A DNA stretch of 64,000 nucleotides. Origin: a bacterium. GTDB lineage: Bacteria; Bacteroidota; Ignavibacteria; Kapaibacteriales; UBA2268. The stretch is from positions 1 to 64,000 of the forward strand of contig JANJTB010000021.1 of NCBI GenBank assembly GCA_024711295.1. Reading direction: 5' to 3'. Positions 38,325 through 46,589 of the stretch are shown in pieces. Under the pieces are notes generated by a model. It was given only the letters and a program-made list of their open reading frames with translations, was not told the DNA's origin and did not search any database. Both the position numbers and the translations under genes were made by a program. Each line of letters opens with the position of its first letter. Within the stretch, counting starts at the first letter, position 1.

Positions 38325-39602
38325 ATGGCAAAAAAGAAAAAACGTAAAGGGTTGTGGATTACAATCGGTATCTTAATAATAGTTATAGTTGGAGCAGGCA
38401 TATTTTTATCAGGTAGTAAAAATGATGCAATTAATGTTACAACAGGAAAAGTTGCAAAAAGAACAATTACACAGACTGTATCAGCAATTGGTAAAATTCA
38501 ACCTGAAACAGAAGTCAAAATCAGTTCACAAGCATCCGGAGAGATTATATTTCTGGGAGTAAAAGAAGGTGATACTGTAAAAAAAGGTCAGCTGCTTGTA
38601 CGAATCAAACCTGATATTATCGAGCCAAGATTGAAACAAATGATTGCAGCATCAGAAGCTTCAAAAATGGATATCACTGTTGCTGAAGCTGAAAAAGAAA
38701 GAGCTGAATTAGATTTGAAAAGAATTGCAGAACTTTACAAGAAAGAATTCATTTCTAAACAAGAGTTTGAAGCAGCAAAAGCAACAGCATCACGTGCATT
38801 AGGAACATACCAATCAGCAATGTCAAGATATCAACAATCTTTAGCTCAACTTAATCAAATTGAACGGGAACAAGAACGTACATCAATTTTTTCTCCTATA
38901 GATGGAGTAATTACTATGTTGTCAGTTGAACTTGGTGAAAAAGTTGTTGGAACAGATATGATGGCAGGTACTGAATTAATGAGAGTAGCAGACTTATCTG
39001 TCATGAATGCTCTTGTTGATGTTGACGAAAATGATATTATTATGGTCAAAAAAGGAGATACAGCAAACATAGAAGTAGATGCATTGCAGAATTTGTCTTT
39101 TATTGGTCAGGTAATTGAAATTGGCCACTCTGCTAAACAAAGCCAACTTGGGACCCAGGATCAAATCACCAATTTTGAGGTCAAAATTAGACTGATTAAT
39201 CCTAATACAAAATTAAGGCCCGGTATGAGCTGCAATACTGATATCATGACAGAAACAAGATATAATGTATTAAGTGTTCCATTGCAAGCTGTGACTGTCA
39301 GAGATAGTAAGCTTGAAGCCAGGCCTGACTTGGATATGAGCACAGATGGTAAGGAAGAGGAAAAAGAAATTAAAAAAGAACGCCCACCATCAGTGGTATT
39401 TTTGAAAGATGGCTCAAAAGCCAAAATGCTAAATGTAGAAACCGGTATTAGTGATAAAGGATTTATAGAAATTATTTCAGGGCTCAATAATGATGATGAG
39501 ATTATTGTTGGTTCTTATTTAGCTGTCAGCAAAGAATTATCTGATGGTTCTAAAATTAAAATTGATACTACTTCAATCAAAAACATTCAAATGAAAAAAT
39601 AA
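38325..39602 (+). CDS. MacA-like periplasmic adaptor protein
   Basis: The 425-residue membrane-fusion protein has an N-terminal anchor ([20 protein letters not shown]), a lipoyl-like barrel half ([39 protein letters not shown]), a coiled-coil hairpin (about 100-185, rich in E, K and A), a second barrel half ([16 protein letters not shown]) and a beta-barrel/MP domain. It links the inner-membrane ABC transporter to TolC. A lysine/glutamate-rich insert ([15 protein letters not shown]) near residue 345 is unusual. It is followed by the ATPase gene 5 bases on. Confidence 0.9.
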
Positions 39603-39607
39603 TTAAA

Positions 39608-40318
39608 ATGGAAAATAAAATAATAATTGATATTAAGAATATCTCAAAAATTTATCAGATGGGTGAAGAAAAAGTTTTTGCACTCAGAGATGTTTCACTT
39701 AATATTTGTAAGAATGAATATGTAGCAATAATGGGTCCATCAGGCTCAGGAAAATCAACTTTGATGAATATTCTCGGTTGTTTGGATACGCCTACTGCCG
39801 GACACTATATGTTTAATGAAAATGATGTTTCGGCAATGGATGATAATGATCTTGCAGAAATTCGAAATAAAGAAATTGGGTTTGTATTTCAAACATTTAA
39901 TTTGTTGCCAAGGGCTACTGCTACAAAGAATGTTGAGCTACCGCTTGTTTATTCCGGTATGCCATCAGCTGATAGACTTGAAAGAGCTTTAAAAACCCTT
40001 GAAAACGTAGGTTTAGCCGATAGAGCTGAGCACAAACCAAACGAATTATCAGGAGGCCAGCGTCAAAGAGTAGCAATAGCCAGGGCTTTGGTTACTACCC
40101 CTTCTATCATACTTGCTGACGAACCTACAGGTAATTTAGACTCTAAGACAGGTGAAGAAATTATGAAGCTTTTTAACGACTTATGGAAAAAAGGAAATAC
40201 AATAATTCTAGTTACACATGAAGAAGATATAGCTTTACACGCAGGAAGAATTATCAGACTAAGAGATGGACTTATTGAAAGTGATTACATCAATCATAAA
40301 CAGGTTAAATACGATTAA
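39608..40318 (+). CDS. MacB/LolD-type ABC transporter ATPase
   Basis: The 236-residue ATPase carries [18 protein letters not shown] (Walker A), the Q-loop [36 protein letters not shown] (signature), [17 protein letters not shown] (Walker B) and the switch His ([14 protein letters not shown]). MacB/LolD/FtsE-type ATPases drive extrusion or trafficking of lipoproteins, peptides and drugs with partner permeases. Two permease genes follow, the first 2 bases after the stop. Confidence 0.95.
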
Positions 40319-40320
40319 TT

Positions 40321-41574
40321 ATGACATTTTCTGAAATCATAGAAAACATCAAACTTGCTTATGATTCGATGAGATCTAATAAAGTGAGGTCATTTTTGGC
40401 ATCATTGGGAGTAGTAATTGGAATATCAACAGTTATTCTTATGGGTTGGATACTCTCTGGTCTGCAATCTGCCATGGATGACACTTTCAAAATAATCGGT
40501 GTTGATGTGATTTATATTGATAAATACGATTGGGCAGGTGGTAAAAAGTGGAAAGAAACACGAAACAGAAAAGACATCACTCTAGAGCAAGCTGATGATT
40601 TCATGAGCCTGATTCAAACTGCCGAGACAGCTTTCCCAACCATAAGAGACTGGGCTGGTACAATTAAATATGAAAATAATAATTATAAAGGGATATCAAT
40701 ACTAGGAACTACACATCATCATGGTCTTACACCGGCGGGCGAAACGTCTCAGGGTAGATACTTTACACCATTCGAAGAAGATTCTAAAGCGAATGTTGTC
40801 GTGATAGGATCAAAAGTTGCTAGCAGTATATTCCCGAATAATGATGCATTAGGTAAAGATATTAAAATTCAAGGGCATAAATTCATGATTGTAGGGGTTA
40901 TTAAAAAACAAGGCACAATGATGCTTGACTTTATTGATAATCAGGTATTTTTACCGCTTGGATCGTTTATAAAAGTATTTGGTAAAAACGGAAGGTCAGT
41001 TTCTATAGGTGTAAAAGCAGGCGGAGAAGAAAAACTTGATGTTATAAGAGAAGAATCGCGTGGAATAATGAGAACAATCCGGAATTTACATCCAAGCGAG
41101 GAAGATGATTTCTCAATTAATGAAACAAAAGCATTCGAGAGTCAAACGGCCCAAATCAAACTCTATGTTTGGGGTGTTGGTATCGGCATGACTGTTTTAT
41201 CCTTTATTGTTGGTATTATTGGCATTATGAACATTATGTTTGTATCTGTAACTGAACGTACTAAAGAGATAGGTATCAGAAAAGCAATCGGTGCAAAAAG
41301 TCGCTCGATACTATTTCAGGTCATATCCGAAGCTACAGCATTATGCATAGTGGGAGCACTTATATCACTGTTCATTTGCTCTGCAATCGCATATTCAGTT
41401 GCAACAATATTGCCAAAATTTGTTCCGCAAGCTGAGTTTCTAAAACCGTATTTGCCAATGGAATTATTAATTATTGCATCGTTGGTATCTTTATTTGTTG
41501 GTGTTTTAGCAGGATTACTACCGGCACTGAGAGCAGCAAGACTAGATCCTGTCGAAGCCCTTAGATTTGAATAG
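40321..41574 (+). CDS. ABC transporter permease (MacB/FtsX type), first of two
   Basis: The 417-residue permease has an N-terminal helix (SFLASLGVVIGISTVILMGWIL), a large periplasmic MacB_PCD domain (residues about 50-280), and three C-terminal helices of the FtsX domain with the coupling motif EIGIRKAIGAKSRSI. The topology with four helices is that of MacB without its ATPase part. Its tandem neighbour is homologous. The pair probably forms a heterodimer with the upstream ATPase, working through the adaptor and TolC. Confidence 0.93.
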   Translation: MTFSEIIENIKLAYDSMRSNKVRSFLASLGVVIGISTVILMGWILSGLQSAMDDTFKIIGVDVIYIDKYDWAGGKKWKETRNRKDITLEQADDFMSLIQTAETAFPTIRDWAGTIKYENNNYKGISILGTTHHHGLTPAGETSQGRYFTPFEEDSKANVVVIGSKVASSIFPNNDALGKDIKIQGHKFMIVGVIKKQGTMMLDFIDNQVFLPLGSFIKVFGKNGRSVSIGVKAGGEEKLDVIREESRGIMRTIRNLHPSEEDDFSINETKAFESQTAQIKLYVWGVGIGMTVLSFIVGIIGIMNIMFVSVTERTKEIGIRKAIGAKSRSILFQVISEATALCIVGALISLFICSAIAYSVATILPKFVPQAEFLKPYLPMELLIIASLVSLFVGVLAGLLPALRAARLDPVEALRFE

Positions 41575-41585
41575 GTGGTTTAATA

Positions 41586-42818
41586 ATGAATTTTAGAGAA
41601 AGTATATTAATTGCATTAGATTCGATACGAGTAAATAAACTACGAGCTTCACTTACATTGCTGAGTATCTCCATAGGTGTATTTGCAATTGTTATTGCAA
41701 TGAGTTTAGTCAGGTCAATAGATAGTACTGTTGATTCTCAACTCTCTTCCTTGGGTGAAAATACTTTTTACATTTTCAGAGTACCAAAGATTCAATTCGG
41801 TGGAAATGCATGGAGAATGTATAGAAGCCGTAAGATAATTAATTTCAGGCAAGTTGAAGACTTTAAGAAAGCAATGACTACTGCTTCTGCAATTAGTGCA
41901 AGTTCGAAATCTGCTGGCCAAACAGTAAAATATTACGATAATGAAACAAACCCTGATGTTCTTCTGGTTGGAACAGATGCTGAATACTTCCAAACTTCAA
42001 ATATGAATGTTGTATCAGGAAGGGCATTTTATTCAAGTGATATTGATTTGAATCGAAATATTGCTGTAATTGGTAATGATATTGCTGTTTTACTTTTTCC
42101 TGGTTCAGATCCAATCAATAAAGAAATTACAATCGGAAAGCAGAAGTTTACAATAGTTGGATTGTTGGAAACCAAAGGAGCGATTCTTGGCAATAGTCAG
42201 GACAATCTAGTAATAATTCCTCTTACTCAATTTTTGAAATACTACTCTGAAAGATGGGAAGAATCTCTTGATTTACAAATTAAAGTAGCAAACAAATCTA
42301 TGATACCGATTGCTATGGACGAAGCTATTGGTATCATGCGGGGCATAAGGAATGTACAGCCATGGGAAATGAATAGTTTCGAAGTTGAAACAAACGAATC
42401 ACTTTCAGAGCAATTTCAAAGTATTACAGGGTTTCTTTCAATTTTCGGATTTGCCTCGGGAATAATAGCACTTCTCGCTGCCGGTATAGGTATTATGAAT
42501 ATCATGCTTGTCACTATTAAAGAAAGAACTCGTGAAATTGGAATCAGAAAGGCAATTGGAGCTAGAAAATCATACATAATGACTCAATTTATTACTGAAA
42601 CTGTAACTCTAAGTCAAATTGGCGGTCTTATTGGGATTACATTAGGTCTTGGATTAGCTTCATTTTTCGGATCTGTAATGGGGCTAACTATAGCACTTCC
42701 GATAGATTGGATTATTTACAGCATTCTGATTTGCACAATTTTAGGAGTGTTATTTGGTGCTTATCCAGCCTGGAAGGCAGCTAATCTGGATCCCATAGAT
42801 GCACTAAGATACGAATAA
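41586..42818 (+). CDS. ABC transporter permease (MacB/FtsX type), second of two
   Basis: The 410-residue paralogue of the preceding gene starts with MNFRESILIALDSIRVNKLRASLTLLSISIGVFAIVIAM and carries the same periplasmic PCD domain and C-terminal ATG ligand EIGIRKAIGARKSYIM. It ends with the conserved YPAWKAANLDPIDALRYE, nearly the same as the last residues of its neighbour (ALRAARLDPVEALRFE). GGTGG lies before its start. It is the last gene of the operon, which ends at a long hairpin. Confidence 0.93.
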   Translation: MNFRESILIALDSIRVNKLRASLTLLSISIGVFAIVIAMSLVRSIDSTVDSQLSSLGENTFYIFRVPKIQFGGNAWRMYRSRKIINFRQVEDFKKAMTTASAISASSKSAGQTVKYYDNETNPDVLLVGTDAEYFQTSNMNVVSGRAFYSSDIDLNRNIAVIGNDIAVLLFPGSDPINKEITIGKQKFTIVGLLETKGAILGNSQDNLVIIPLTQFLKYYSERWEESLDLQIKVANKSMIPIAMDEAIGIMRGIRNVQPWEMNSFEVETNESLSEQFQSITGFLSIFGFASGIIALLAAGIGIMNIMLVTIKERTREIGIRKAIGARKSYIMTQFITETVTLSQIGGLIGITLGLGLASFFGSVMGLTIALPIDWIIYSILICTILGVLFGAYPAWKAANLDPIDALRYE

Positions 42819-44843: not shown

Positions 44844-46589
44844 ATGATAATTCTAAAATATATACTTTTTGCTTTGGTTCTGAGTTTATTAGCTTGCTCT
44901 GACAATGTTACCAATTTAATCGGTTACAACCGTACTTTAGTTTTGATTACAGACTTTGAGAAAAGCTCAGAGCAGGTTATAAAAATTATTGGAAGTATCA
45001 GAGAGTCTCATCCAGATACAGATATTCAATATTTTAAGTCCAAAGACTTTGATGTTAATGAAGCATCATATTTAGCTGAATTAGCAGATATCTCATTCAA
45101 GGGTAAAGTTTATTTTGCAATAATTGTTGACCCTGGGAGCAACTCTGACAGAATAATTTATAAAGTAGCCGGAAAGAGTGTGCTTGCACCAAATAATGGA
45201 GTAAACACCAGACTTAGATTAAGACATAATCCTGACAAAATTTTCTTTATAGATAATTTATCAATTTTTGATAACAAATATAAACAAATCAAGGATATTC
45301 CTTATGAAGAGTTTTATACTGAAGCTATCATTAAAATGCTCAATGACACCCCGTCCGAAAATTTTGGAAGTATATGCAATAACCCGATTAATATAGAAAT
45401 AACAAATCCAAAGACAGACAATGGAAGAGTATATGGTGAAGTCTTAATTAGTGATAATTTTGGAAATTGTGAAACTAATATTGACTATAATTTAATGAAT
45501 GGATTTGAAAAAGGTGAAATTCTACGTATAAAAATCAACAATAGAAGTTTATTCATTAAGTTTGGAGATACATATTCAAATGTTGAAGTCGGTGAAAACA
45601 TTTGTTTGATTAATTCCAGAGGACGGTTAGAACTTGCAATAAATTATGCAAGTTTTGCATCAAAATATTCTACAAAATCAGGAACAAAAATTGAGATTGA
45701 AAAAGCTATTGTCAATATTGGAATTATTAAATTCAATTCTTCACAATTAGTTGAAAACATTATCGCAAATTTTAAAGATCAGCTCAATTCATATGGATTT
45801 AAGGAAAATGTAAACACAATCTACTATGAAGTTGATGCCGGTGGAGATGCGACAAAATTACCTACCTTGATTAATCAGCTTCAAAAAAATCAACTTGATA
45901 TAGTAGTACCTGTTTCTACTCCAGCTTCAAAGTCAGCAATAAATATAATAAAAGATATACCAATTGTTTATACCTATGTTACTTCTCCAGAATTTGCAGG
46001 ATTAACGAATGCCGGTGAACTTGTTACAGGCTTGTCCGATGCTACAAATTTTGATGATTACCTAAGTTTTGTCAAGGAATTATTGCCTGAAATAAATGAA
46101 GCAGGTAGAATTTATAATCCAAACGAGCCAAATTCGGCTTTTTCGCAGGAACAATTCATAAATTTGACACCAAAGTACGAAATTGATTTATACAGCAAGA
46201 GCATTAATGATATCGAAAGTATAGTACCTGCTTATAATGAATTAAAAAATCAGGGAATTAAAACTATACTCATTGCTGCAGACAATACCTTGAATATTGT
46301 TATGAAACAACTTGCAAATAAATGTATTAATGACGGTAGTTATCTAATAGGAGATTCGTATGAGAATGCTCAGGATGGTGCACTTGCTTCAATTTCAGTA
46401 GATTATGATTTATTAGCTGATGCAACAGGGAAAACCGTTAAAAATGTTTTATTAGGCATTATCCCATCGAGTATAATTATCAAGAGATTTCCTACATCTT
46501 TTATAACGCTAAACCAAATTACAGCTGATAAGATTGGGTTCAAGTTCAGTTCTAGTATAGTTAGTAAAGCAAAAAACATTATTAAATAG
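44844..46589 (+). CDS. Lipoprotein fusing DUF62-like and ABC_sub_bind domains
   Basis: The 581-residue product has a lipobox ending in Cys18 (LLAC). Residues about 30-285 follow the SAM-hydroxide adenosyltransferase (DUF62/fluorinase) layout: LITDFE, FAIIVDPGSNSDR (Asp96 and Arg103, seven apart as in the family), KSVLAPNNGVNT, ISDNFGNCETNI and a C-terminal barrel GRLELAINYASFA. The family's HGRD catalytic His is not seen; the region reads DIPYEEFYTE. Residues about 288-581 match pfam04392-type binding proteins (VPVSTPASKSAINIIKDIPIVYTYVTSPEFAGL, TGLSDATN). No permease or ATPase is adjacent; a GH57 gene follows after 2 bases. Function unknown. Confidence 0.75.
   Translation: MIILKYILFALVLSLLACSDNVTNLIGYNRTLVLITDFEKSSEQVIKIIGSIRESHPDTDIQYFKSKDFDVNEASYLAELADISFKGKVYFAIIVDPGSNSDRIIYKVAGKSVLAPNNGVNTRLRLRHNPDKIFFIDNLSIFDNKYKQIKDIPYEEFYTEAIIKMLNDTPSENFGSICNNPINIEITNPKTDNGRVYGEVLISDNFGNCETNIDYNLMNGFEKGEILRIKINNRSLFIKFGDTYSNVEVGENICLINSRGRLELAINYASFASKYSTKSGTKIEIEKAIVNIGIIKFNSSQLVENIIANFKDQLNSYGFKENVNTIYYEVDAGGDATKLPTLINQLQKNQLDIVVPVSTPASKSAINIIKDIPIVYTYVTSPEFAGLTNAGELVTGLSDATNFDDYLSFVKELLPEINEAGRIYNPNEPNSAFSQEQFINLTPKYEIDLYSKSINDIESIVPAYNELKNQGIKTILIAADNTLNIVMKQLANKCINDGSYLIGDSYENAQDGALASISVDYDLLADATGKTVKNVLLGIIPSSIIIKRFPTSFITLNQITADKIGFKFSSSIVSKAKNIIK

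Follow-up and report, generated by a model that had tools for sequence, protein, structure and literature searches.

A lipid-anchored fusion of a DUF62 fold, probably without SAM hydrolase activity, and an ABC_sub_bind domain

The stretch of DNA analysed here (hereafter the window; 64,000 nucleotides) contains on its forward strand, at positions 44844..46589, a gene with an ATG start for a predicted lipoprotein of 581 aa in which a DUF62 (SAM_HAT) part is fused to an ABC_sub_bind part. To our knowledge, all characterised DUF62 members act on SAM in the cytoplasm.

Architecture and recurrence of the fusion

Both halves of the protein were recognised by Pfam well above the respective cut-offs: SAM_HAT_N at residues 32–140 (E 1.8e-8, 34.7 vs 26.3 bits), SAM_HAT_C at residues 198–284 (E 2.5e-19, 69.8 vs 25.5 bits) and ABC_sub_bind (PF04392) at residues 292–578 (E 7.2e-36, 124.3 vs 25.9 bits). 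An AlphaFold2 model built from four sequences (mean pLDDT 80, pTM 0.68; best of five, the others at 48–65) displayed two domains. Residues 31–287 of the model were aligned with DUF62 structures by VIA-align (2zbv, Z 23.5, rmsd 3.5 over 250; 2wr8, Z 21.3), and residues 288–580 with ABC_sub_bind structures (3lkv, Z 32.1; 6hnj, 31.8; 3lft, 31.4). Sequence searches against the PDB agreed with both assignments independently of the model. The original prediction of a DUF62 fold in the first half, followed by a complete ABC_sub_bind domain, is therefore well founded. From Pfam and structure alignment, the DUF62 (SAM hydroxide adenosyltransferase) fold was defined as the region between about residues 28 and 288 (44925..45707) and the ABC_sub_bind domain, of TrpX/CD0873 type, as residues 288–580 (45705..46583). 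The linker is very short in the model, with only two residues between a strand at 282–287 and the next one at 290–296.

Six genomes carry the fusion at full length: the window's own (G000), G190 and G402 from the same genus, and G375, G225 and G233 from a second genus (g8) of the same family, at 41–49% identity. The fusion proteins of G375, G225 and G402 are also those encoded at the loci L003, L004 and L005, respectively. None of the other 48 genomes of this family (54 examined) carries the fusion, and no full-length fusion was detected elsewhere in draws from the class (391 genomes) and the phylum (395 genomes), the other matches listed covering one half only. A GTDB-wide scan with six peptide patterns taken from one protein, which reaches close relatives only, returned only members of the same group. 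No relative was found on viral contigs; on plasmids no place covered 80% of the query, and the best listed matches covered the binding half. Since the same fusion recurs in six assemblies of two genera, an assembly chimera, a refuting condition named with the original prediction, was ruled out: five assemblies besides that of the window carry the gene. No described protein of this architecture had been known at the outset; no description of it was found in the open-licence literature, and in the draws searched it does not occur beyond one family.

The locus L003 (JAGXRP010000033.1) is titled as a Desulfobulbaceae MAG. Almost every gene agrees with the locus of the Ignavibacteriae MAG L004, and the genome set puts L003 in the family of the window protein, in the same genus as L004; the Desulfobulbaceae title looks wrong.

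At the N-terminus, a signal peptide (residues 1–17, 44844..44894) and the lipobox LLAC (residues 15–18) precede the predicted lipidation site, Cys18 (codon TGC, 44895..44897), so that signal peptide, lipobox and Cys of a lipoprotein are all present, as originally proposed. All six fusion proteins have a signal peptide and lipobox, with a hydrophobic N-terminus that ends in Cys. From the Cys onward the residues read CSDN in the window's genome, CTEN in G190 and G402, and CGDEN, CGEDN or CGEEN in g8. The surface export signal of Bacteroidota lipoproteins is K-(D/E)2 or SDDDD-like after the Cys (PMC5080379).

The DUF62 half: active site, selection and origin

The motifs first read from the sequence, namely LITDFE, VDPGSNSDR (with Asp96 and Arg103), LAPNNG and SDNFGNCETNI, were all located. 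The six fusions were aligned with 33 cytosolic and 5 exported DUF62 homologues. All 33 cytosolic and all 5 exported proteins have the FHGRD motif, while it is gone as a whole from the six fusions, the window protein having IPYEE instead (residues 152–156, 45297..45311); in the fusion lineages, the sequence of this region is a different, rebuilt one. The loss of the catalytic His, noted at first for the window protein, thus extends to every fusion. Regarding the other triad positions, Arg103 (45150..45152) aligns with an Arg kept in two of the six fusions (R/K/R/N/N/N), and Asp96 (45129..45131) with an Asp kept in five (D/D/E/D/D/D). The His-Arg-Asp triad has been described as strictly conserved in DUF62 and as activating the hydrolytic water (PMC10491745). 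As the triad His is missing in all six fusions, SAM hydrolysis has very probably been lost. Two (R)-SAM hydrolase equivalogs also scored below their NCBIfam cut-offs (NF058624, 45.5 vs 350 bits; NF053629, 37.7 vs 470 bits).

The absence of the triad alone is no proof against any adenosyl chemistry, since fluorinase and chlorinase lack it too, yet act on SAM (PMC10491745). The fusion could accordingly be imagined as an adenosyl-transferring enzyme with altered, e.g. halogenase-like, chemistry, and the C-terminal NSRGRL of the window protein is indeed identical to the SalL segment. We consider such an enzyme very improbable: NSRGRL is missing from the other five fusions, the score with the fluorinase model TIGR04507 was far below the NCBIfam cut-off (25.2 vs 400 bits), the FHGRD region was rebuilt, and free SAM would be scarce outside the cytoplasm.

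Eight residues are invariant in the fusions: Asp37, Pro116, Asn118, Gly119, Asp204, Gly207, Asn208 and Thr211. The nucleoside-side motifs Asp37, PxNG and DNxGN are thereby kept in 6/6 proteins; Asp37 (44952..44954) is invariant in cytosolic and exported DUF62s as well, and the DNFGN motif of the window protein covers residues 204–208 (45453..45467). As judged from the alignment, much of the substrate-side signature of the family is kept in the fusions, which is compatible with adenosyl binding by this half, though its ligand may be a different one. In the halogenases, the residues of the C-terminal NSRGR segment lie on the methionine side. This segment is not uniform among the fusions (NSRGR in the window protein, DADNK in g8), and its variation argues against intact SAM as their common ligand.

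Selection was estimated within g8, where synonymous sites are unsaturated. Among the three g8 species, omega amounted to 0.07–0.11 for the DUF62 half and 0.08–0.11 for the binding half, so both halves are under strong purifying selection among close species, and a decaying pseudogene half was ruled out. In comparisons across genera, and also inside the window's genus, identity is lower for the DUF62 half (33–43%) than for the binding half (47–62%).

The kept pocket residues could instead reflect folding or trimer packing. In DUF62 enzymes and fluorinase the catalytic site is located at the protomer interfaces of a trimer (PMC12120602), and for this reason the kept motif residues could serve packing. 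The DUF62 half would then be a pure trimerising scaffold which shows three flytraps on one particle and binds no small molecule. The very short linker and the faster divergence of this half between genera would fit such a scaffold; the invariant residues, however, include polar signature side chains (Asp37, Asn118, Asn208) and not only packing residues, and we regard the scaffold as unlikely.

In phylogenetic analysis, the fused DUF62 halves formed one clade (100/100), which joined exported DUF62s of Bacteroidota with modest support (80/92). These exported proteins (L113, L118, L129, L130 and L133), from other Bacteroidota, have signal peptides and an intact FHGRD, which suggests that export of the DUF62 protein probably preceded the loss of catalysis. 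Beyond close species they have no gene neighbourhood in common. Descent from the lineage's own cytosolic DUF62 was not supported, the fused halves grouping elsewhere in the tree.

Each of the three genomes from the window's genus has a cytosolic DUF62 gene (L012:6146-6772, minus strand; L063:1489-2118 and L066:1489-2115, plus strand). The encoded proteins keep FHGRD and end just past DxFGNLI with a similar KKKR...CR(I/V) tail, so that the SAM_HAT_C barrel is largely missing (in the window's genome, 19 of 84 positions were matched). Rather than decay, this seems to be a conserved truncation.

The binding half and the question of an importer

The proteins closest to the binding half hold Tyr, Phe or Trp in their structures, and two positions set their specificity (PMC6816091). 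At the first position, Ser505 (46356..46358) aligns with Glu263 of CD0873, Ala246 of VC_1101 and Ala268 of SP1069, and thus differs from Glu/Ala. At the second one, Tyr521 (46404..46406) aligns with Tyr279 of CD0873, Tyr262 of VC_1101 and Gln284 of SP1069, and matches the first two. Both Ser and Tyr are present in all six fusions. The comparison favours an aromatic amino acid over a nucleoside as ligand of this half; because Tyr521 agrees with the binders of Tyr and Phe and not with that of Trp, our best guess is a Phe/Tyr-like amino acid. The TrpX equivalog NF041285 scored below its NCBIfam cut-off (128.6 vs 390 bits).

No permease or ATPase genes adjoin the fusion gene in the window or in any other genomic context read, as had been noticed for the window at the outset. 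Farther upstream, separated from the fusion gene by two genes on the opposite strand, there is a MacB-type export cassette (38325-42818). Across genera, no neighbour gene is common to the fusions. With names given partly by reading the sequences, the neighbours are aminotransferase, glyoxalase-like and GH57 genes in the window's genome, a KBL-like gene and a secreted protein in g8, UbiA-like and SDR-like genes in G402, and agmatinase-like and K+ channel/TrkA-like genes in G190.

Stand-alone ABC_sub_bind lipoproteins of ~320 aa are encoded in several genomes of the family (L038, L039, L041, L042, L043, L029), and importer genes are not adjacent to them either in the contexts read.

The single BPD_transp_2 permease of the window's genome is part of a 1247-aa protein, encoded on contig 5, with three tandem ABC_sub_bind domains (L011:7034-10777, corresponding to about 63033-66776 of the contig, minus strand). 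The gene is followed by an ATPase gene and preceded by a STAS-domain gene. Among related permease proteins, there are three binding domains in G402, two in g8 and G403 and one in G333, and a dimer of the contig 5 protein would bear up to six binding sites.

These findings bear on a further explanation, in which the fusion is a detached extra subunit of a TrpXYZ-like importer delivering the amino acid, with a DUF62 half that only positions it. In favour of such a partnership, the sole permease of the genome belongs to a protein that already includes three ABC_sub_bind domains and has an ATPase gene as neighbour; an importer of ABC_sub_bind type exists in five of the six fusion genomes, where the fusion may have a role in transport. 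On the other hand, the fusion and importer genes are unlinked, and the binding half is only 26–28% identical to the contig 5 domains. In the tree, these importer domains fall outside a clade (100/100) made up of the fused binding halves. Furthermore, G190 (98% complete, 6 contigs) has no BPD_transp_2 permease, and the fusion is its sole ABC_sub_bind protein. The fusion lipoprotein therefore cannot need such an importer everywhere: it is independent of a BPD_transp_2-type importer in at least one carrier, and a cognate importer is not obligatory. A role as importer subunit appears doubtful overall.

Proposed role and comparison with known systems

The explanation which we favour tentatively, with a probability of roughly 0.4, is a lipid-anchored extracytoplasmic binding lipoprotein of two modules, one of them a pseudoenzyme, acting as a free-standing receptor or scavenger. 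It builds on what sequence and prediction gave for fold, lipobox, triad loss, selection, recurrence and the absence of an importer in one carrier; from these we infer ligands, trimerisation, topology and physiological role. Two modules with almost no linker would be carried by one lipid-anchored protein outside the cytoplasm. The N-terminal half would be a former exported SAM hydrolase which has lost the triad His and most likely SAM hydrolysis with it; it is most likely a non-catalytic binding module with kept nucleoside-side residues, and possibly trimeric like DUF62 enzymes. The C-terminal half would be a flytrap of TrpX/CD0873 type, most likely binding an aromatic (Phe/Tyr-like) amino acid. 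The fusion would act at the membrane or cell surface, and not as a dedicated subunit of one ABC importer.

A more specific version, which we regard as unlikely, is an extracytoplasmic pseudoenzyme serving as sensor or scavenger, with an adenosyl compound (a SAM breakdown product, adenosine or similar) and an aromatic amino acid as its two ligands and without an ABC importer. If true, one lipoprotein would read out both, with the adenosyl compound in the retired DUF62 pocket and the amino acid in the fused flytrap.

Both halves belong to known families; what sets the fusion apart is their combination, the export and the loss of the triad. With the (R,S)-SAM hydrolases of the DUF62 family (PF01887 and PF20257; 2zbu/2zbv, 2wr8, MJ1651) the fusion has both domains, the fold (Z about 20–23.5) and the Asp37, PxNG and DxFGN motifs in common; unlike them, it has lost FHGRD, has a variable Arg, and is predicted to be lipid-anchored outside the cytoplasm and joined to a binding protein. 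The exported DUF62s of Bacteroidota (about 296 aa) have a signal peptide like the fusion and are its nearest branch in the DUF62 tree, but they keep FHGRD and the Arg, show no obvious lipobox and stand alone. A triad-less secreted DUF62 beside exported, triad-intact ones suggests that members of this family work outside the cytoplasm too and are open to conversion into binding modules. The fusion is likely a pseudoenzyme added to the DUF62 family, and since many structures of this family have been solved, the change of its pocket can be read structurally.

The binding half shares its complete fold with TrpX/SP1069 (3lft), VC_1101 (3lkv) and CD0873 (6hni), at 22–25% identity; CD0873 is in addition anchored as a lipoprotein like the fusion and has a Tyr (Tyr279; Tyr262 in VC_1101) at the position of Tyr521. 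In contrast to these three proteins, the fusion has Ser505 at the Glu/Ala position, an N-terminal DUF62 half and no adjacent cognate importer. GlnPQ, an importer with tandem fused substrate-binding domains (PMC8025302), offers a comparison for the contig 5 permease protein, whereas the window protein carries its flytrap on a DUF62 fold without any transmembrane permease part.
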